Shown here: in pieces, positions 6,897-15,832 of the stretch
Numbering within the stretch: the stretch's first letter is position 1
Layout: every line of letters begins with the position of its first letter
NCBI RefSeq assembly: GCF_035918235.1
Contig: NZ_CP109485.1
Span: forward strand, 8,099,001 to 8,163,000
Direction of reading: 5' to 3'
DNA: 64,000 bases
DNA from: Streptomyces sp. NBC_01445
Lineage (GTDB): Bacteria; Actinomycetota; Actinomycetes; Streptomycetales; Streptomycetaceae
The notes under the pieces: model-generated
Seen by the model: only the letters and a program-made list of their open reading frames with translations
The model's database searches: none
What the model was told of the DNA's origin: nothing
Made by a program: the position numbers and the translations under genes

Positions 6897-8381
<1,485 letters not shown>

Positions 8382-8453: not shown

Positions 8454-8538
8454 ACGCAACGGACGAAACGGACTGCGCAACGTTCGTCCACACCCGCGCG
8501 CACCACGCAACGTTCATGCGCGCATACGCAAGGTTGCT
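8454..8538 (+). promoter_or_regulatory. Four phased regulator boxes upstream of the permease
   Basis: Four 13-nt boxes of consensus RCGCAACGNNCGN begin at 8454, 8475, 8505 and 8526 (steps of 21, 30 and 21 nt). Boxes 2 and 3 share CGCAACGTTC; box 4 (ACGCAAGGTTGCT) shows a GCAA/TTGC dyad. Roughly whole-turn spacing suggests cooperative binding on one DNA face, as Lrp/AsnC proteins do. The last box ends 3 nt before the -35. Confidence 0.65.
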
Positions 8539-8541
8539 GCA

Positions 8542-8571
8542 TTACAGCTGGGAAGAGAAACCCTTTAGAGT
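8542..8571 (+). promoter_or_regulatory. Predicted sigma-70-type promoter of the permease
   Basis: TTACAG (8542-8547), an 18-nt spacer and TAGAGT (8566-8571), placed directly downstream of the four boxes and about 125 nt before the permease start. Confidence 0.55.
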
Positions 8572-8694
8572 CAAGCGCTGTACGTGGCGTGGCGGGGACG
8601 GCCTGCTCGGCGGTTCCCCGGTCTGTGTGGGCTGCCGTTGCTTGTTGTTCCCGGTGCGCGCCCACCTGACCGGCAGCGATGAAGGAGCCAGCCC

Positions 8695-10167
8695 GTGCTC
8701 GACCACGGCGCACCACCGCGCACCCGAACAACCGAGACCCCCACCCCGGGCCTCGGCGCCAGGCTGATGCGGCGCAAGCCGGTAGAAGCCCTGGTCGCGG
8801 AGGGTGGCCAGGGTGAAGGCGGCAGTCTGCGCCGCTCGCTCGGCATGTGGCAGCTGACCATGATCAGCATCGGCGCCACGCTCGGCACCGGCATCTTCGT
8901 GGTGCTCGGCGAGGCCGTCCCGAAGGCGGGCCCAGCGGTCACCCTGTCGTTCGTGATCGCCGGTCTCACGGCCCTCTTCTCGGCGCTCTCGTACGCCGAA
9001 CTGGCTGGGACCATACCGGTCGCGGGCTCCTCCTACTCGTATGCGTACGCAACGATGGGCGAGCTGATCGCCTGGATCTGCGGCTGGTGTCTGGTCCTCG
9101 AGTACGGCGTGTCGGTCGCGGCCGTCGCCGTCGGCTGGGGCGAGTACCTGAACGAGCTCCTGGACGGCACGATCGGCGTCACGATCCCCGACGCCCTGTC
9201 CGCGCCCCCTGGCGACGGCGGCATCTTCAACCTGCCGGCGCTGATCGTCGTGCTCCTCGCGATGGCGTTCCTGCTCGGCGGCGCCCGTGAGTCCGCCCGC
9301 GCCAACACGATCATGGTCGCCGTCAAGATCGTGGCGCTGCTGCTGTTCTGCGCCATCGGCATCAAGGGCTTCCAGTCCGGCAACTACGAGCACTTCATGC
9401 CGCTCGGCATGGCCGGAGTGAGCGCGGCCGGTGCGACGCTCTTCTTCTCGTACATCGGCTTCGACGCCGCCTCCACGGCCGGCGAGGAGGCCAAGAACCC
9501 GCAGCGCGATCTGCCGCGCGCCATCATGCTCTCCCTCGTGATCGTCACCGCGCTGTACGTCCTCGTGGCCGCCGTCGCCGTCGGCGCGCGCCCCTGGAAG
9601 CAGTTCAACGACTCCGAGGCCGCCCTGGCCGGGATCATGAAGGACGTCACCGGGCAGTCGTTCTGGGCGACGCTGCTCGCCGCCGGCGCCGTCATCGCCA
9701 TCGCGTCCGTCGTGCTGACCGTGCTCTACGGCCAGACCCGCATCCTGTTCGCGATGTCCCGCGACGGCCTCGTGCCCAAGGTGTTCTCGAAGGTCCACCC
9801 GAAGACCGGCGCACCGCGCGCCAACACGGTGATCGTCTCGCTCTTCTGCGGTGTCCTCGCCGCCGCGATCCCGCTCGGCCAGCTCGCCGACGCGACCAGC
9901 ATCGGCACGCTCTTCGCGTTCGCCCTGGTCAACATCGCGGTCGTGGTCCTGCGCCGCACACGCCCCGAAATGAAGCGCACCTTCCGCGTGCCGCTCTCGC
10001 CGATCCTGCCGGCGCTCGGCTTCGGGTTCTGCGTCTGGATGATGGGCAGTCTGTCCACCGTCACCTGGGTGGTCTTCGGCGTGTGGATGGCCGTCGGCCT
10101 CGTGTTCTACTTCCTTTACGGGGCCCGTCGCTCCCGACTCGCCTCCGCGCCTGCCCAAGAGAAGTGA
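8695..10167 (+). CDS. APC-superfamily (CAT-type) cationic amino-acid permease
   Basis: A 490-residue inner-membrane transporter with about 12-14 hydrophobic segments. Family marks: GATLGTGIFVVLGEAV in the first membrane span, SALSYAELAGTIPVAGSSYSY, FFSYIGFDAASTAGEEAKNP and TILYGQTR-like LYGQTRILFAMSRDGL. This pattern fits the CAT branch that carries arginine and lysine. GTG 8695 has AAGGAG 7 nt upstream. The Lrp gene follows after 10 nt, so the two form an operon. The shared box motif with the amidase/monooxygenase operon suggests it imports their amino-acid substrate (inference). Confidence 0.9.
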   Translation: MLDHGAPPRTRTTETPTPGLGARLMRRKPVEALVAEGGQGEGGSLRRSLGMWQLTMISIGATLGTGIFVVLGEAVPKAGPAVTLSFVIAGLTALFSALSYAELAGTIPVAGSSYSYAYATMGELIAWICGWCLVLEYGVSVAAVAVGWGEYLNELLDGTIGVTIPDALSAPPGDGGIFNLPALIVVLLAMAFLLGGARESARANTIMVAVKIVALLLFCAIGIKGFQSGNYEHFMPLGMAGVSAAGATLFFSYIGFDAASTAGEEAKNPQRDLPRAIMLSLVIVTALYVLVAAVAVGARPWKQFNDSEAALAGIMKDVTGQSFWATLLAAGAVIAIASVVLTVLYGQTRILFAMSRDGLVPKVFSKVHPKTGAPRANTVIVSLFCGVLAAAIPLGQLADATSIGTLFAFALVNIAVVVLRRTRPEMKRTFRVPLSPILPALGFGFCVWMMGSLSTVTWVVFGVWMAVGLVFYFLYGARRSRLASAPAQEK

Positions 10168-10177
10168 ACCACCTGCC

Positions 10178-10630
10178 TTGCTGAACGATCTCGACGAACG
10201 CATCGTGCACGCCCTCGCCGAGGACGCCCGCCGCTCCTACGCCGACATCGGCCAGCTCGTCGGCCTGTCCGCGCCCGCCGTCAAGCGGCGCGTGGACCGG
10301 TTGCGGGCCACCGGAGCCATCACGGGTTTCACGGTGAGGGTCGACCCGGCCGCGCTCGGCTGGGAGACCGAGGGGTTCATCGAGATGTACTGCCGCCGCA
10401 ACACCTCGCCCGAGGCCATCAAGCGCGGCCTCGAGCGGTACCCCGAGGTCGCGTCCGCGTCCACCGTCACCGGTGACGCGGACGCGATCGTCCAGGTCTT
10501 CGCCTCGGACATGCGGCACTTCGAGCGGGTACTGGAACGCATCGCGGGGGAGCCGTTCGTGGAACGGACCAAGTCGGTGCTCGTCCTGTCGCCGCTGATG
10601 CGGCGCTACACGTCGGGCTCGCCCGCGTAA
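10178..10630 (+). CDS. Lrp/AsnC-family transcriptional regulator
   Basis: A 150-residue regulator with an N-terminal winged helix-turn-helix (LDERIVHALAEDARRSYADI then GQLVGLSAPAVKRRVDRL, residues 4-42) and a C-terminal RAM ligand-binding domain (FIEMYCRRNTSPEAIKRGL; VTGDADAIVQVFASD). It starts with TTG 10 nt after the permease. Lrp proteins of this size sense amino acids and bind phased sites; it is the best candidate to recognise the boxes at 8454-8538 and 11345-11410, and so to control uptake and catabolism together. That link is inferred from position and box geometry. Confidence 0.9.
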   Translation: MLNDLDERIVHALAEDARRSYADIGQLVGLSAPAVKRRVDRLRATGAITGFTVRVDPAALGWETEGFIEMYCRRNTSPEAIKRGLERYPEVASASTVTGDADAIVQVFASDMRHFERVLERIAGEPFVERTKSVLVLSPLMRRYTSGSPA

Positions 10631-10634
10631 CACC

Positions 10635-11186
10635 TCACTGTGTGGGATACACCGGGCGCCACGGCAGCACCTTGAAGTCGCCGGTGCCCTTCTTGACCGT
10701 CTCGAAGGGCGCCGAGCCCAGGCACTGCGGCACCTTGTTCTTCTCCGTGTCGGGGCTCACCCAGCTGTATCCGACCCGGTCGTGCCGGCCGTCGTCCTGG
10801 ACGGTGATGCCGACCCGCTTCCCCTTGAAGGGGGTGTCGGAGTCGGTGACGACGCCTGTCATCACGGCCACCTTGCCGCCCGTCAGCAGGCAGTCGACCC
10901 GGCCTTTGGCCCAGCCGCCCTTGCCGTGCAGGTAGTGGCTGAAGGCGAAGGTGCCGTACGCCTTCTCCGGCTCCATGTTGTCCTTCGCCGCCAGGTGCGC
11001 GTCGAAGGTGAAGGTGATGTCGTCGCCGAGCGGCCGGTACAGCTTGGCCGAGCCGGTCAGCGCGGCGGCCTCCCGCTCCGCGTGCGGCCGGTGTGCGACC
11101 CCGTCGTCCGCGGTCGCCGCCGCCGGGCCCGCCGCTGCCGCCACCAGAAGTGCCGCTGTCGCCGTCAGGACGTGAATGCGCGCCAT
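10635..11186 (-). CDS. Secreted protein of unknown function, 183 aa
   Basis: A leftward gene with a clear Sec signal peptide (MARIHVLTATAALLVAAAAG, cleavage near AAA-TAD at about residue 26). The mature part is beta-rich: FTFDAHLAAKDN, AYGTFAFSHYLHG, GRVDCLLTGGKVAVMTGVV and VGITVQDDG. This alternating pattern with a G-x-V-x-C-L strand and a final F-x-V-L-P-W-R motif recurs in secreted actinobacterial proteins of unknown role. Two Cys residues could form a disulfide. It is convergent with the Lrp gene, only 4 nt away. No function can be assigned. Confidence 0.8.
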   Translation of the reverse strand: MARIHVLTATAALLVAAAAGPAAATADDGVAHRPHAEREAAALTGSAKLYRPLGDDITFTFDAHLAAKDNMEPEKAYGTFAFSHYLHGKGGWAKGRVDCLLTGGKVAVMTGVVTDSDTPFKGKRVGITVQDDGRHDRVGYSWVSPDTEKNKVPQCLGSAPFETVKKGTGDFKVLPWRPVYPTQ

Positions 11187-11344
11187 GGGATCCCCCTGAG
11201 TTCACCGTGCTCACCCGGTCCGTCCGGGCGGGATCACGATCCCGCGAAGGCGGCACCCGGCACGTCGGGCCACGGTCGGCTTCCCGCCTCCGCCGCGCGG
11301 CGGAGACCACCCCGTGCGGACTGCGACCAAAGGCTCACCCGGAC

Positions 11345-11410
11345 GCGCAACAAATCGCCGTCGACGGCCCCTGAGGCGCAACGGATCGTACGAGAAGACG
11401 CAACAGTCCC
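11345..11410 (+). promoter_or_regulatory. Three phased regulator boxes upstream of the amidase
   Basis: Boxes GCGCAACAAATCG (11345), GCGCAACGGATCG (11376) and ACGCAACAGTCCC (11398) repeat the motif found at 8454-8538, with steps of 31 and 22 nt. The last box ends 3 nt before the -35, the same geometry as at the permease promoter. Confidence 0.6.
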
Positions 11411-11413
11411 GTC

Positions 11414-11443
11414 TTGTCCCGTCGGTCCGCGGAAACGTACCGT
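11414..11443 (+). promoter_or_regulatory. Predicted promoter of the amidase-monooxygenase operon
   Basis: TTGTCC (11414-11419), an 18-nt spacer and TACCGT (11438-11443). About 50 nt of leader precede the amidase start. Confidence 0.5.
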
Positions 11444-11492
11444 CTTATCCGATCCCCCTCCCCCTTTTTTTCGCACGCTCCCTAGGACGCCC

Positions 11493-12290
11493 ATGCCGCC
11501 GCTGCGCACCGCCCTGCTCCAGAGCTCCGGCCGCCCCGGGTCCGTCGACGAGAACCTCAAGGTGCTCGATGACGCCGCCGGCCGCGCCGCCGCGACCGGA
11601 GCCCGGCTCCTGGCGGCCCCCGAGATGTTCCTGACCGGGTACGCGATCGGCGACGACGTGGCCCGCCTCGCCGAGCCCACCGACGGGCCCTCCGCGCAGG
11701 CCATCGCCGGGATCGCGGCCCGGCACGGCGTCGCCGTGGCGTACGGCTACCCGGAGCGCGACGGGGAGCTGGTGTTCAACTCGGCCCAGCTGATCGCCCC
11801 CGACGGCACCCGCCTCGCGAACTACCGCAAGACCCACCTCTTCGGCTGCTTCGAGCGCGACTCGTTCACGCCCGGCGACCAGGCCGTCGTCCAGGCCGAC
11901 CTCGACGGTGTCCGCATCGGCCTCATGATCTGTTACGACGTCGAGTTCCCGGAGAACGTGCGCGCGCACGCCCTCGCCGGCACCGACCTGCTCCTCGTAC
12001 CGACGGCCCAGATGCACCCGTACCAGTTCGTCGCCGAGTCCGTCGTCCCCGTGCGGGCCTTCGAGAACCAGATGTACGTCGCGTACGTCAACCGGGTCGG
12101 CCAGGAGGGGGAGTTCGAGTTCGTCGGGCTCTCCACGCTCGCCGGCCCCGACGGTGTCGCCCGGGCGCGCGCAGGCCGCGGCGACGAGCTGATCTGTGCC
12201 GACGTGGACCCCGCCTTCCTGGCCGCGTCCCGCGACGCCAACCCGTACCTCAGCGACCGCCGCCCGGGCCTGTACACGCCGCTGATCTGA
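11493..12290 (+). CDS. Carbon-nitrogen hydrolase, DavA-like 5-aminovaleramide/4-guanidinobutyramide amidase
   Basis: A 265-residue nitrilase-superfamily enzyme with the Glu-Lys-Cys triad visible in PEMFLTGYAIG (Glu), NYRKTHLFG (Lys) and MICYDVEFPENVR (Cys). It resembles Pseudomonas DavA, which hydrolyses the amide made by lysine 2-monooxygenase. The next gene encodes exactly such a monooxygenase, so the product amide is the likely substrate: 5-aminovaleramide from lysine or 4-guanidinobutyramide from arginine. ATG 11493 is chosen for the family start, with AGGA upstream; the longer open frame is not coding-like. Confidence 0.88.
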   Translation: MPPLRTALLQSSGRPGSVDENLKVLDDAAGRAAATGARLLAAPEMFLTGYAIGDDVARLAEPTDGPSAQAIAGIAARHGVAVAYGYPERDGELVFNSAQLIAPDGTRLANYRKTHLFGCFERDSFTPGDQAVVQADLDGVRIGLMICYDVEFPENVRAHALAGTDLLLVPTAQMHPYQFVAESVVPVRAFENQMYVAYVNRVGQEGEFEFVGLSTLAGPDGVARARAGRGDELICADVDPAFLAASRDANPYLSDRRPGLYTPLI

Positions 12291-12349
12291 GCCCCGAGCC
12301 GCCGCCCCGAACCTTCAGTACCTCAGTTCCCGCAAGGAGTCCGTACCCC

Positions 12350-14053
12350 ATGACGTCCACGGTGCCCAACGCCGTCCAGCACACCGACGCGCAGCCCCCC
12401 ATCACGATGTTCGGGCCGGACTTCCCGTACGCGTACGACGACTTCCTCGCGCACCCCGCGGGCCTCGGCCAGATACCGGCGACCGAGCACGGCACCGAGG
12501 TCGCGGTCATCGGCGGCGGCCTCTCCGGCATCGTCGCGGCGTACGAGCTGATGAAGATGGGTCTCAAGCCCGTCGTGTACGAGGCGGACGAGATCGGCGG
12601 CCGGCTGCGCACCGTCGGCTTCGAGGGCACCCCCTCCGAGGCCGCCGGGCTGACCGCGGAGATGGGCGCGATGCGGTTCCCGCCGTCGTCGACCGCGCTC
12701 CAGCACTACATCGACCTGGTGGGCCTCGAGACGCGGCCCTTCCCCAACCCGCTCGCCCCCGAGACCCCGTCGACCGTCGTCGACCTCAAGGGCGAGTCCC
12801 ACTACGCGAACACCGTCGACGACCTGCCGCAGGTCTACCGCGACGTCATGAACGCGTGGAACGCCTGCCTCGAAGAGGGCGCCGACTTCTCCGACATGAA
12901 CCAGGCCATGCGGGAGCGCGACGTGCCGCGCATCCGCGAGATCTGGTCGAAGCTCGTCGACAAGCTCGACAACCAGACGTTCTACGGGTTCCTCTGCGAC
13001 TCCGAGTCCTTCAAGTCCTTCCGGCACCGGGAGATCTTCGGGCAGGTCGGCTTCGGCACCGGTGGTTGGGACACCGACTTCCCGAACTCCATCCTGGAGA
13101 TCCTGCGCGTCGTCTACACCGAGGCCGACGACCACCACCGCGGCATCGTCGGCGGTTCCCAGCAGCTCCCGCTGCGCCTGTGGGAGCGCGAGCCGGAGAA
13201 GATCGTCCACTGGGCGTACGGCACCTCGCTCGCCGAGCTGCACGACAGTCGGAAGCCGCGCCCGGCCGTGACCCGCCTGCACCGCACTGCGGGCAACCGC
13301 ATCACGGTCACCGACGCGTCGGGTGACATCCGCACCTACCAGGCGGCGATCTTCACCGCACAGTCCTGGATGCTGCTGTCCAAGGTCGCGTGCGACGACT
13401 CGCTCTTCCCGATCGACCACTGGACGGCGATCGAGCGCACCCACTACATGGAGAGCTCGAAGCTCTTCGTCCCGGTCGACCGGCCGTTCTGGCTGGACAA
13501 GGACGAGGAGACCGGGCGGGACACGATGTCCATGACGCTCACCGACCGCATGACGCGCGGCACCTACCTGCTGGACGACGGTCCGGACAAGCCGGCCACC
13601 ATCTGCCTGTCGTACACGTGGTGCGACGACAGCCTGAAGTGGCTGCCTCTGTCGGCGAACGAGCGCATGGAGGTCATGCTCAAGTCGCTCGGCGAGATCT
13701 ATCCGAAGGTCGACATCAGGAAGCACATCATCGGCAACCCGGTGACCGTGTCCTGGGAGAACGAGCCCTACTTCATGGGCGCGTTCAAGGCGAACCTGCC
13801 GGGTCACTACCGCTACCAGCGCCGCCTGTTCACGCACTTCATGCAGGACCGCCTCCCCGAGGACAAGCGGGGCATCTTCCTCGCGGGCGACGACATCTCC
13901 TGGACGGCGGGCTGGGCCGAGGGCGCCGTGCAGACCGCGCTCAACGCCGTCTGGGGCGTGATGCACCAGCTCGGCGGCGCGACGGACGGCACGAACCCCG
14001 GCCCCGGCGACGTGTACGACGAGATCGCTCCGGTCGAGCTGCCGGAGGACTGA
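12350..14053 (+). CDS. Flavin amino-acid 2-monooxygenase, DavB-like (lysine or arginine)
   Basis: A 567-residue FAD enzyme of the amine-oxidase superfamily. It has the N-terminal FGPDFPYAYDDFLAHPAGLG segment, the dinucleotide-binding VAVIGGGLSGIVAAYELMKM (from about residue 50), EMGAMRFPPSS, QVGFGTGGWDTDFPNS and a C-terminal flavin motif around FLAGDDISWTAGWAEGAVQT. Length and all these segments match lysine 2-monooxygenase (DavB), which oxidatively decarboxylates lysine to 5-aminovaleramide; Streptomyces are also known to degrade arginine by an analogous oxygenase route to 4-guanidinobutyramide. The sequence does not tell which is preferred. It follows the amidase by about 60 nt and ends at a strong bidirectional terminator. 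Confidence 0.88.
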   Translation: MTSTVPNAVQHTDAQPPITMFGPDFPYAYDDFLAHPAGLGQIPATEHGTEVAVIGGGLSGIVAAYELMKMGLKPVVYEADEIGGRLRTVGFEGTPSEAAGLTAEMGAMRFPPSSTALQHYIDLVGLETRPFPNPLAPETPSTVVDLKGESHYANTVDDLPQVYRDVMNAWNACLEEGADFSDMNQAMRERDVPRIREIWSKLVDKLDNQTFYGFLCDSESFKSFRHREIFGQVGFGTGGWDTDFPNSILEILRVVYTEADDHHRGIVGGSQQLPLRLWEREPEKIVHWAYGTSLAELHDSRKPRPAVTRLHRTAGNRITVTDASGDIRTYQAAIFTAQSWMLLSKVACDDSLFPIDHWTAIERTHYMESSKLFVPVDRPFWLDKDEETGRDTMSMTLTDRMTRGTYLLDDGPDKPATICLSYTWCDDSLKWLPLSANERMEVMLKSLGEIYPKVDIRKHIIGNPVTVSWENEPYFMGAFKANLPGHYRYQRRLFTHFMQDRLPEDKRGIFLAGDDISWTAGWAEGAVQTALNAVWGVMHQLGGATDGTNPGPGDVYDEIAPVELPED

Positions 14054-14093: not shown

Positions 14094-15023
14094 TCAGACC
14101 CCGGCCGCGCGTGCCGCCGTGAACACCTCGGCCGCGACATCCGTCAGCTCGTCGGCGTCGCGGACGAGGCCCTGGAGGTCGATCAGGATCTCCTCGAGGC
14201 CCACCGCGTTGTGCGCGGCCAGGTCCTCGACGATCTGCGCGACGCTGCCCTGGAACGGGCGGCGGTCGTCGCCCTTGTACTCGTCCCGCGTGTAGACCGT
14301 GTTCACCCGCAGCACGCTCTGGATGGGCTCCTTGCGGCCGCGCTCCTCGGCCAGTTCCTGCAGATTCCGCCACTGCTCGGCGAGCTGCTCGGCGCCCGCG
14401 GCCCCCGGCATCCAGCCGTCCGCGCGGTCCACGAGCCGGCGTGCGGCCTTCGGGCTGTTCGCCGGCAGGAGCACCGGGATCGGCCCGGCGGGCTTCGGCC
14501 CCACCACGGACGGCGCGATCGTCGTGAGCTCACCCTCGTAACTCACCGGGTCGGGGCCCCACACGGCCTCGAACACGTCGAGCAGCTCGTCCAGGACCTG
14601 GCCTCGCTTCTCGAACGGGGCCACGGAAGCGGCCGCGTACTCGTCGTGGGACCACCCCGTGCCGATGCCCGCGACGACGCGGCCACCGCTCGCCGCGTCC
14701 AACGAGGCCAGGGCGCGCGCCAGTTGGAACGGCACGTGCAGAGGGCCGACAAGCACGCTCGTGCCGAGCCTGGCCCGCTCGGTGACGGCGGCGGCCAGGG
14801 TGAGCGAGACCAGCGGGTCGGCGACCGAGCGGTACTGGTCCGGCCAGGGGAGGCCCGGAACCCCGTACAGGCCCTGGCGGGCGGGCTCGGGGAAGAGGAT
14901 CCGCTCGAAGACCCACAGGCTCTCGTAGCCGATCTCCTCGGCGGCGCGTGCCACCGCCGGGATGTCGCGCCCGATGTCGTACTGCTTCATCTGGGGGAGG
15001 CTGAGGCCGAGTCGGGTCGCCAT
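14094..15023 (-). CDS. LLM-class F420- or FMN-dependent oxidoreductase
   Basis: A 309-residue luciferase-like TIM barrel. Typical segments: RLGLSLPQM at the start, AAEEIGYESLWVFERILFPE, RARLGTSVLVGPLHVPFQLARAL, SGGRVVAGIGTGW and ADGWMPG. Most actinobacterial members use F420; the substrate is unknown. ATG 15023 is chosen because AAGGAG lies 8 nt upstream. It is convergent with the monooxygenase operon. One box-like sequence (ACGCAAGCGATCC on the minus strand, 15051-15063) sits just upstream, so it may belong to the same regulon, although the distance to the start is short. Confidence 0.88.
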   Translation of the reverse strand: MATRLGLSLPQMKQYDIGRDIPAVARAAEEIGYESLWVFERILFPEPARQGLYGVPGLPWPDQYRSVADPLVSLTLAAAVTERARLGTSVLVGPLHVPFQLARALASLDAASGGRVVAGIGTGWSHDEYAAASVAPFEKRGQVLDELLDVFEAVWGPDPVSYEGELTTIAPSVVGPKPAGPIPVLLPANSPKAARRLVDRADGWMPGAAGAEQLAEQWRNLQELAEERGRKEPIQSVLRVNTVYTRDEYKGDDRRPFQGSVAQIVEDLAAHNAVGLEEILIDLQGLVRDADELTDVAAEVFTAARAAGV

Positions 15024-15127
15024 GCCGGTGCTCCTTCGCGTTCGCATCAGGGATCGCTTGCGTAACTCCTCGTCAACGTACAGCGATCACGTGGGAGTTC
15101 CGTGGCGAAGGCGGGCGCGTGGCCGAA

Positions 15128-15832
15128 TCAGTCCGGCAGGGGGGTGAGCATCATGCGGCCCACCAGGCCCACCGAGGTGTCGAGGCGCCGGACGAACTCC
15201 TCGGTGACGTCCGGGAATTCACGCAGCACCCACAGGGCGCGGGCCGCGGCCCAGGCGCCGTCCCTGGCGCGCTCCAGGGTCCAGGAGCCGAGCAGATGGG
15301 TGAGGGGATCGGCGATCTGGAGCAGATCGGGGCCCGGCATCAGATCTTCGCGGATGCGCTCCTCCAGCGAGACGAGGAGATCGCCCACGCGGTCGAACTC
15401 ATCCTCCACGTCCGCCGGTTCGCAGCCGAGCGTACGGCAGGTGTCCACGACGGCGAGCGCAAGATCGTGGCCGATGTGCGCATTGATGCCCGCGAGCGCG
15501 AACTGCAGGGGGCGTACCCCGGGATGGCGCCGGTACTGGAGCAGCGGACGCCAGCAGGCGGGCGGACGGTGGTCCGTGGAGCGGGTTTCGACGGCGGCCA
15601 GATAGCGCCCGGCGAAGCGAACGTCCAGCGTGGCCGCGGCTTCGGTGTCGGCGAACCGGCCGCCGTCGATGTGCCGGTCGACCTCTTCCGTGACGGACAG
15701 ATAGACCCGGTTGAAGACGGCCACACCGTCGCAGGCGGGCCAGGACGCGGCCAGCTCACGCATCCGGGCCACCACGGAGTCGACCCCGCGCGCGGCGGGC
15801 GTGCACTTCGCGAACCGTTCCAACTGCGCCAT
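15128..15832 (-). CDS. DUF5995 family protein
   Basis: A 234-residue cytoplasmic protein without signal peptide. Segments VFNRVYLSVTEEV, FADTEAAATLDVRFAGRYL, WRPLLQYR and the His-containing FALAGINAHIGHDLALAVV match the DUF5995 pattern as remembered; the function of the family is unknown. The conserved INAHIGHDL could be a metal or haem site, but this is speculation. It starts at ATG 15832 and is divergent from the GH6 gene. Confidence 0.82.
   Translation of the reverse strand: MAQLERFAKCTPAARGVDSVVARMRELAASWPACDGVAVFNRVYLSVTEEVDRHIDGGRFADTEAAATLDVRFAGRYLAAVETRSTDHRPPACWRPLLQYRRHPGVRPLQFALAGINAHIGHDLALAVVDTCRTLGCEPADVEDEFDRVGDLLVSLEERIREDLMPGPDLLQIADPLTHLLGSWTLERARDGAWAAARALWVLREFPDVTEEFVRRLDTSVGLVGRMMLTPLPD

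Follow-up and report, generated by a model that had tools for sequence, protein, structure and literature searches.

The window analysed here is a 64,000-nucleotide stretch of the Streptomyces sp. NBC_01445 genome (C1:8099001-8163000 of 11.47 Mb). It encodes an amino acid permease, an Lrp-type regulator, a nitrilase-family amidase and a flavin monooxygenase, which in our judgement probably form an inducible arginine oxygenase (arginine 2-monooxygenase) catabolic regulon. The permease would import arginine, the flavoenzyme would use O2 to decarboxylate L-arginine oxidatively to 4-guanidinobutyramide, and the amidase would hydrolyze this amide to 4-guanidinobutyrate; a ureohydrolase encoded elsewhere (C1:6443555-6444526) would then remove urea to give gamma-aminobutyrate (GABA), which a GABA transaminase would pass towards succinate. 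The Lrp protein, probably an activator that responds to arginine, would bind phased CGCAA repeats before the amidase-monooxygenase operon and before the permease-Lrp operon to which it belongs. We infer the substrate and the products, and prefer arginine to lysine, mainly from the co-occurrence and clustering of the monooxygenase with the ureohydrolase, together with its kinship with enzymes of arginoketide-like clusters.

All four genes lie on the forward strand, and domain and structure matches confirm both their identities and the grouping that a sequence-only reading had proposed for them (Table 1). They fall into two transcription units, permease-Lrp (8695-10630) and nitrilase-monooxygenase (11493-14053), because a reverse-strand gene sits between the Lrp and hydrolase genes. 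The permease begins at a GTG preceded by a GAAGGAG ribosome site, exceeds the cut-off of the TIGR00909 amino acid transporter model (623 versus 557 bits) and has the CAT C-terminal domain PF13906, but fails the NCBIfam cationic amino acid transporter model TIGR00906 (331 bits against a cut-off of 682); its earlier description as CAT-type is thus a loose one. The regulator belongs to the Lrp/AsnC family, with an AsnC-type helix-turn-helix (PF13404) and a ligand-binding domain (PF01037) that both exceed their cut-offs. Alignments of the CN-hydrolase, which has an ATG start and matches PF00795 at 178 bits, display PEMF, RKTHL and ICYDVEFPE, presumably the Glu-Lys-Cys motifs of the nitrilase superfamily, and place it among the amidases of that superfamily. 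The monooxygenase, preceded by a 59-bp gap containing an AAGGAG site, matches PF01593 at 168 bits (cut-off 19.8) and has as its closest solved structure the L-amino acid oxidase/monooxygenase 3we0 of the Protein Data Bank (783 bits over residues 11-564), compared with 196 bits for 4iv9 and 30 bits for its best NCBIfam match. We take its predicted activity to be that of EC 1.13.12.1. The earlier assignment of enzyme classes, an oxidative decarboxylation to an amide followed by amide hydrolysis, holds, whereas the left end then given to the set, position 8454, does not mark the start of a gene and immediately precedes the CGCAA repeat array.

The later steps of the predicted route are encoded outside the window. 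Two arginase-family matches occur in the genome, one of which fits HutG and lies beside genes that read as histidine degradation. The other is the unlinked ureohydrolase, whose best match is the guanidinobutyrase 3nio (287 bits), followed by proclavaminate amidinohydrolase (258 bits), guanidinopropionase (252 bits) and the agmatinase 4dz4 (230 bits). A GABA transaminase is also present (598 bits against a model cut-off of 507). The sequence-only reading had placed the genes for further degradation outside the window and proposed a search of the genome for a guanidinobutyrase; both points were borne out, as the arginase-family and GABA transaminase matches are all elsewhere (aldehyde dehydrogenases were not checked) and one of them is guanidinobutyrase-like. 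That reading had also left the product as either 5-aminovalerate or 4-guanidinobutyrate, a choice that the ureohydrolase associations and the arginoketide-like kinship now narrow to the latter. With an amidase, a guanidinobutyrase-like ureohydrolase and a GABA transaminase in one genome, the gene content is consistent with an arginine oxygenase pathway. A lysine/ornithine/arginine decarboxylase-family gene is found in the same genome, which may thus have further routes for arginine or lysine.

The ureohydrolase gene adjoins a gene for a thiamine pyrophosphate (TPP) enzyme, a pairing also seen in locus L201 (see below). The two best NCBIfam models of this enzyme both fall under cut-off, the second being 5-guanidino-2-oxopentanoate decarboxylase (342 bits against 500), and the enzyme might salvage 2-ketoarginine arising from an oxidase side activity. 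Other neighbours are a gene that by eye resembles PucR-type regulators, without an NCBIfam match at 1e-20, and a sodium-solute-symporter relative (126 bits, below the cut-off of 184).

Across genomes, the ureohydrolase co-occurs with the monooxygenase. In a class-level sample of 296 genomes, 45 have the monooxygenase and 85 the ureohydrolase (E 1e-60); the latter is present in 43 of the 45 monooxygenase-positive genomes and in 42 of the 251 negative ones (Fisher 2e-25, uncorrected for kinship). In the two positives that lack it (G460 and G620), the monooxygenase copy is near a CoA ligase gene. Counted by genus, the ureohydrolase occurs in 8/8 genera with a non-cluster-type monooxygenase and in 28/106 others (p 5e-5), although for one of the eight (g16) the evidence is a fragment from a genome that is incomplete. 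Among 40 chosen genomes of the genus Streptomyces, an arginase-family match (E 1e-90 or better) was found in 30/30 positives and 2/10 negatives (G079 and G320); three further negatives have weaker arginase-family matches, that of G271 being 36% identical to the one in the genome studied here.

Physical linkage points in the same direction. We fetched 19 class-level loci, 15 of which are from outside the genus and belong neither to the CoA-ligase-linked type nor to a third monooxygenase class described below; in three of these 15 (L201, L193 and L195/L207), the ureohydrolase gene is near the monooxygenase gene. L201 encodes the whole predicted route within 12 kb, including two aldehyde dehydrogenases whose nearest models, below cut-off, are for succinate semialdehyde. 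In L193, the ureohydrolase is divergent to a regulator-monooxygenase pair, and in L195/L207 a GABA transaminase is divergent to the monooxygenase, with the ureohydrolase 9 kb away. The L193 and L195 monooxygenases share a clade with that of the window (SH-aLRT 93). A ureohydrolase would be of use to an arginine route and of none to a lysine or ornithine route; the linkage therefore favours arginine.

We read the pocket residues of the monooxygenase by alignment on 3we0 in 21 core sequences, that of the window and 20 others. All 21 keep Arg102, Trp235, Asp238, Tyr416, Trp418, Phe473 and Trp516, and all differ from 3we0 in having Gly for Ala515, Ala for Cys254 and His for Gln258. According to the available parts of PMC5832979, Asp238 binds the side-chain charge in lysine, ornithine and arginine complexes, and Phe235 and Gly515 widen the pockets of tryptophan and phenylalanine enzymes. 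With the Asp238 anchor, the Phe473/Trp516 cage and the rest of the pocket retained, the window enzyme should therefore take a basic amino acid; the Phe and Val that mark tryptophan 2-monooxygenases at 235 and 238 are replaced by Trp and Asp. Asp238 is present in 18/19 class-level relatives, the exception being L206. This locus belongs to the third class of monooxygenases (L079-L083 and L206; 33-40% identical), which has Phe at 238, occurs in two copies in L080 and probably acts on side chains without charge; we had considered its members as basic amino acid enzymes and ruled this out on the basis of that Phe.

Some Streptomyces genomes carry a second monooxygenase copy, 60-64% identical to the core one, and we examined 28 such paralogue loci (25 second-copy loci from the genus plus L200, L203 and L205). 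Using CoA ligase and loading acyltransferase queries taken from L042, itself one of the 28, we found matches in 21/28 and 19/28 loci, respectively; the ureohydrolase has a match in 6/28, two of these just 37% identical. Each of the three is found in 0/20 core loci of the genus. All 28 paralogues have Asp238, and in L042, L046 and L055 large genes beside the copies read as polyketide synthase pieces. The available sections of PMC5082578 describe the arginoketide starter pathway as an arginine monooxygenase, a 4-guanidinobutyramide hydrolase and a CoA ligase; the lydicamycin cluster lists a 551-aa amine oxidase (PMC4572681, in part), and a characterized arginine oxidase gene served to locate six arginoketide-type clusters (PMC4737276, in part). 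The paralogue loci resemble these published clusters, in which the starter derives from arginine. Counts of a TACSS motif as a polyketide marker in the 20-kb stretches were uninformative (0 to 2 matches), and the L042-derived queries proved the better marker. In L055, the second-copy monooxygenase and an adjacent nitrilase (47% identical) lie beside a very large polyketide-synthase-like gene. The copy in L084, which we left out of the paralogue set, is 59% identical, contains one TAG and has Asn at position 238; beside it are a nitrilase of its own (37% identical) and a gene resembling permeases.

The core monooxygenase is nearly universal in the genus, with an orthologue in 382/392 sampled genomes and 372/380 of those of high quality. 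In 20 loci from 20 genomes, each examined as a 20-kb stretch, the nitrilase gene adjoins the monooxygenase gene in every case, and the set is therefore not due to chance. An Lrp gene is within the stretch in 16/20. The stable core is thus the nitrilase and the monooxygenase, with Lrp as the usual companion and the permease as an optional one. An Lrp orthologue 91-99% identical to that of the window was found in 5/5 monooxygenase-positive genomes tested and in one of 10 negatives, G320. On a GuaB1 tree, seven high-quality monooxygenase-negative genomes group in a single clade (support 93). The eighth, G320, retains the ureohydrolase and also Lrp, the latter at the edge of a contig (C1:1012-1458), so that its lack of a monooxygenase is probably an assembly gap; we left it out of the negative clade group and set aside G050 (82% complete) and G079 (78% complete) as incomplete. 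A core copy (P0013, 87% identical) is found in the violaceusniger group, to which azalomycin producers belong.

The two transcription units share an upstream repeat array, which now supplies sequence evidence for the regulatory link between Lrp and these genes that had earlier been supposed. We spotted the CGCAA motif first and defined the test afterwards. The triple array before the nitrilase gene, with 31+22 spacing (once 31+21), is found in 38/43 distinct nitrilase upstream regions versus 0.0/43 in dinucleotide shuffles, and that before the permease gene (30+21) in 10/11 distinct upstream regions versus 0.02/11; the 43 regions were drawn from the window, from the 20 loci and from 29 closest-relative loci, with a bias towards near kin. 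A search of the whole 11.47-Mb genome with a pattern derived from both window arrays returned, as was bound to happen, those two places and no third, and the reversed pattern gave zero matches in the same genome. The spacings are near three and two helical turns, and would therefore place the sites on the same side of the DNA helix. In 36/38 arrays, TTGTC begins 15 bp downstream of the site 3 start, and a TTGNCN-18-TA...T promoter, each time with an 18-bp spacer, is present in 41/43 nitrilase upstream regions. The array is thus placed just upstream of the -35 box, a position that fits an activator. Beyond these loci, a CGCAA pair at exactly 31 bp (relaxed motif) occurs in 5/8 nitrilase upstream regions of family f17 and in 0/122 controls. 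The pair was not seen in L199, L200, L202, L203 and L204, which have no Lrp match; in L196, which is truncated by the end of its contig, the pair is present and the available piece contains no Lrp. We infer that the array is probably the Lrp operator; the array-binding protein, the ligand to which it would respond and the direction of its effect are all predictions from this arrangement.

Table 1. Features of the window and of related loci. Positions without a prefix refer to the window.
Feature	Location	Strand	Basis or remark
APC-superfamily amino acid permease, putative basic amino acid importer	8695..10167	+	TIGR00909
Lrp/AsnC-family regulator, candidate CGCAA-array binder	10178..10630	+	10 bp after permease stop
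Nitrilase-superfamily (CN-hydrolase) amidase, predicted 4-guanidinobutyramide hydrolase	11493..12290	+	PF00795
Flavin L-amino acid 2-monooxygenase, predicted arginine 2-monooxygenase	12350..14053	+	PF01593, 3we0 homology
Operator-like array before permease	8455..8532	+	CGCAA(C/G) at 8455, 8476, 8506, 8527; last three spaced 30+21 bp
Operator-like triple array before nitrilase	11346..11404	+	CGCAAC at 11346, 11377, 11399; spacing 31+22 bp
Promoter-like element	11414..11443	+	TTGTCC (11414), 18 bp, TACCGT (11438); -35 box 15 bp after site 3 start
GuaB1-type GMP reductase	6939..8381	+	
Protein with signal-like start	10635..11186	-	zero Pfam/NCBIfam matches
F420-dependent LLM oxidoreductase	14094..15047	-	TIGR03619
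DUF5995 gene	15128..15832	-	convergent, 3' of monooxygenase
Guanidinobutyrase-like ureohydrolase	L094:9556..10527 (C1:6443555..6444526)		unlinked to monooxygenase
TPP enzyme	L094:10632..12305		adjoins ureohydrolase
Nitrilase, L201	L201:4641..5435		
Monooxygenase, L201	L201:5620..7251		followed by regulator-like gene
Ureohydrolase, L201	L201:9347..10369		
TPP enzyme, L201	L201:10366..12102		
GABA transaminase, L201	L201:15449..16795		
Second-copy monooxygenase with adjacent nitrilase, L055	L055:8399..10819		
59% identical monooxygenase copy, L084	L084:9044..10744		

The main rival, which we regard as unlikely, is a Dav-type lysine module, in which a lysine 2-monooxygenase and a 5-aminovaleramidase would produce 5-aminovalerate, to be carried towards glutarate by GABA-transaminase-type enzymes. 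The closest solved structure is a lysine-preferring enzyme whose Asp238 is conserved here, five relatives among the 120 of 3701 matches listed are named lysine 2-monooxygenase, and the GABA transaminase beside the L195 monooxygenase fits lysine equally. We nevertheless downgraded a lysine-only reading, because it leaves the co-occurrence and linkage of the ureohydrolase unexplained; the decarboxylase-family gene in the genome is also a possible other route for lysine. As a weaker point, the window enzyme has Gly where the one lysine enzyme compared has Ala515, our own mark of the lysine subtype, although that Ala may mark the Pseudomonas enzyme only. A broad enzyme for arginine, lysine and ornithine, the role of which would vary with diet and strain, has a precedent in the Pseudomonas relative, which acts on all three (PMC5832979, in part); we give this reading little weight, as the genomic partners, namely the ureohydrolase and a TPP enzyme with models under cut-off, point to guanidino compounds. 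Some database names instead suggest a tryptophan 2-monooxygenase with an indole-3-acetamide hydrolase for auxin synthesis, and nine relatives among the same 120 are named tryptophan 2-monooxygenase; the match to 4iv9 and Gly515, which the tryptophan enzyme shares, also count for it. We rejected this reading as hardly credible: Trp235 and Asp238 do not fit it and make the pocket charged, and the partners elsewhere are guanidino-compound genes.

Several observations weigh against the arginine oxygenase route that we favour. The pocket residues alone do not separate arginine from lysine, and Gly515 is shared by all the compared sequences apart from the lysine enzyme, those of the tryptophan enzyme and of the third class among them. 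The lysine enzyme is thus the odd one out, and Gly515 is no sign of arginine preference; we accordingly reduced Gly515, tried as an arginine mark, to a weak point. At cage position 516, the 28 arginoketide-type paralogues all have Phe instead of the Trp of the core. The ureohydrolase scores above the cut-off of the NCBIfam agmatinase model as well (236 against 174 bits), is carried by 42 class genomes that lack the monooxygenase and, as noted, is absent from all 20 core loci of the genus. Because the seven high-quality negatives are one clade, the co-absence of the two genes within the genus counts as one event, and we discarded its treatment as many events (p 6e-7). As for the linked loci, no nitrilase gene adjoins the monooxygenase gene in L193 and L195, and the L201 monooxygenase branches with the Pseudomonas lysine enzyme, outside the clade of the window. 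The genome contains two deiminase-like genes just below cut-off and may thus possess other ways of degrading arginine. L060, L066, L076 and L077 have the array and no Lrp gene in the 20-kb stretch, and the permease gene is inside the stretch in only 10/20 genus loci. Lastly, the available parts of PMC5082578 state that S. lividans is without arginine monooxygenase and that azalomycin production needed fed 4-guanidinobutyramide, a statement that would be easier to accommodate if the core enzyme were not an arginine enzyme. With the core gene so widespread in the genus (382 of 392 genomes), it is probably present in S. lividans too, and this would count against a strongly arginine-active enzyme or else suggest tight regulation; in that case, the core enzyme would either not be an arginine enzyme or be unexpressed, or else its product would have missed the polyketide pathway.

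Four neighbouring genes are also conserved to varying degrees. The reverse-strand gene between the two units, the product of which has a signal-like start by eye, is present in 9/20 genus loci; it is divergent from the nitrilase gene over the CGCAA array and may share that array. The F420-dependent LLM oxidoreductase gene is near the monooxygenase gene in 8/20 loci, in some of which it intervenes between the latter and the DUF5995 gene, itself found in 19/20. The GuaB1-type GMP reductase gene, which served as the tree marker, is in the same 20-kb stretch in 14/20.

The arginine oxygenase route is old biochemistry, and the classical arginine 2-monooxygenase (EC 1.13.12.1) reportedly came from Streptomyces griseus, with the same predicted reaction and in the same genus. 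Our full-text literature searches, whose coverage excluded most subscription papers, returned the arginoketide studies cited above and found no gene assigned to a catabolic arginine 2-monooxygenase. Among the 120 of 3701 matches listed, the named proteins closest to the window monooxygenase come from Streptomyces; most of the 120 are either unnamed or annotated as flavin monoamine oxidase or NAD(P)/FAD-dependent oxidoreductase, and the word arginine appears in none of the (shortened) names as shown. According to the available parts of PMC3293853, S. coelicolor grows on arginine, a standard arginase gene was not found and gabT doubles with arginine; two deiminase genes are named as the identified catabolic genes, along with scattered homologues of the decarboxylase (ADC) route and an arginase activity suspected for ArcB, and these parts do not mention an oxygenase route.

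We rate as slightly better than even the wider proposal that Streptomyces degrade arginine by a near-universal oxygenase operon under a dedicated arginine-sensing Lrp with two targets, marked by CGCAA triplets in helical phase next to a fixed -35 box, that the tryptophan and lysine monooxygenase entries of this clade are misnamed, and that the arginine monooxygenases of polyketide clusters are relatives of this primary-metabolism family. If true, a genus-wide operon with a defined array would provide a testable answer on arginine catabolism, and the names of part of a protein family would be corrected. Primary arginine catabolism would also be tied to the enzymes providing the starter units of antifungal polyketides, and the two-target Lrp regulon would be small enough for dissection.

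The predicted module can be compared with four other known systems. The L-amino acid oxidase/monooxygenase (L-AAO/MOG) of Pseudomonas sp. AIU 813 (3we0, 5yb6-5yb8; lysine 2-monooxygenase, EC 1.13.12.2) is homologous over residues 11-564 and has in common with the window enzyme the Asp238 anchor, the aromatic cage Phe473/Trp516, Arg102 and Tyr416; it differs at positions 515, 254 and 258, as described above, and the relatives of the window enzyme have arginine-type genomic partners. The monooxygenase and 4-guanidinobutyramide hydrolase of arginoketide (marginolactone/lydicamycin) biosynthesis are predicted to catalyze the same two reactions; the 60-64% identical arginoketide-type copies also have Asp238 and are distinguished by a nearby CoA ligase gene (21/28) and Phe516, while the core loci contain neither CoA ligase nor acyltransferase and have the CGCAA array. 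The Pseudomonas davBA lysine module likewise consists of a flavin monooxygenase and a nitrilase-family amidase, and the module described here is set apart from it by its predicted arginine substrate, its permease-Lrp unit and its CGCAA arrays. In the guanidinobutyrase route of Pseudomonas aeruginosa (3nio), whose gene names we take to be GbuA, AruI and KauB, a ureohydrolase similarly turns 4-guanidinobutyrate into GABA, and the TPP enzyme beside the ureohydrolase here resembles the 2-ketoarginine decarboxylase model; entry into the pathway in Streptomyces would instead be by a flavin monooxygenase, with the ureohydrolase cluster unlinked to it in this genome.

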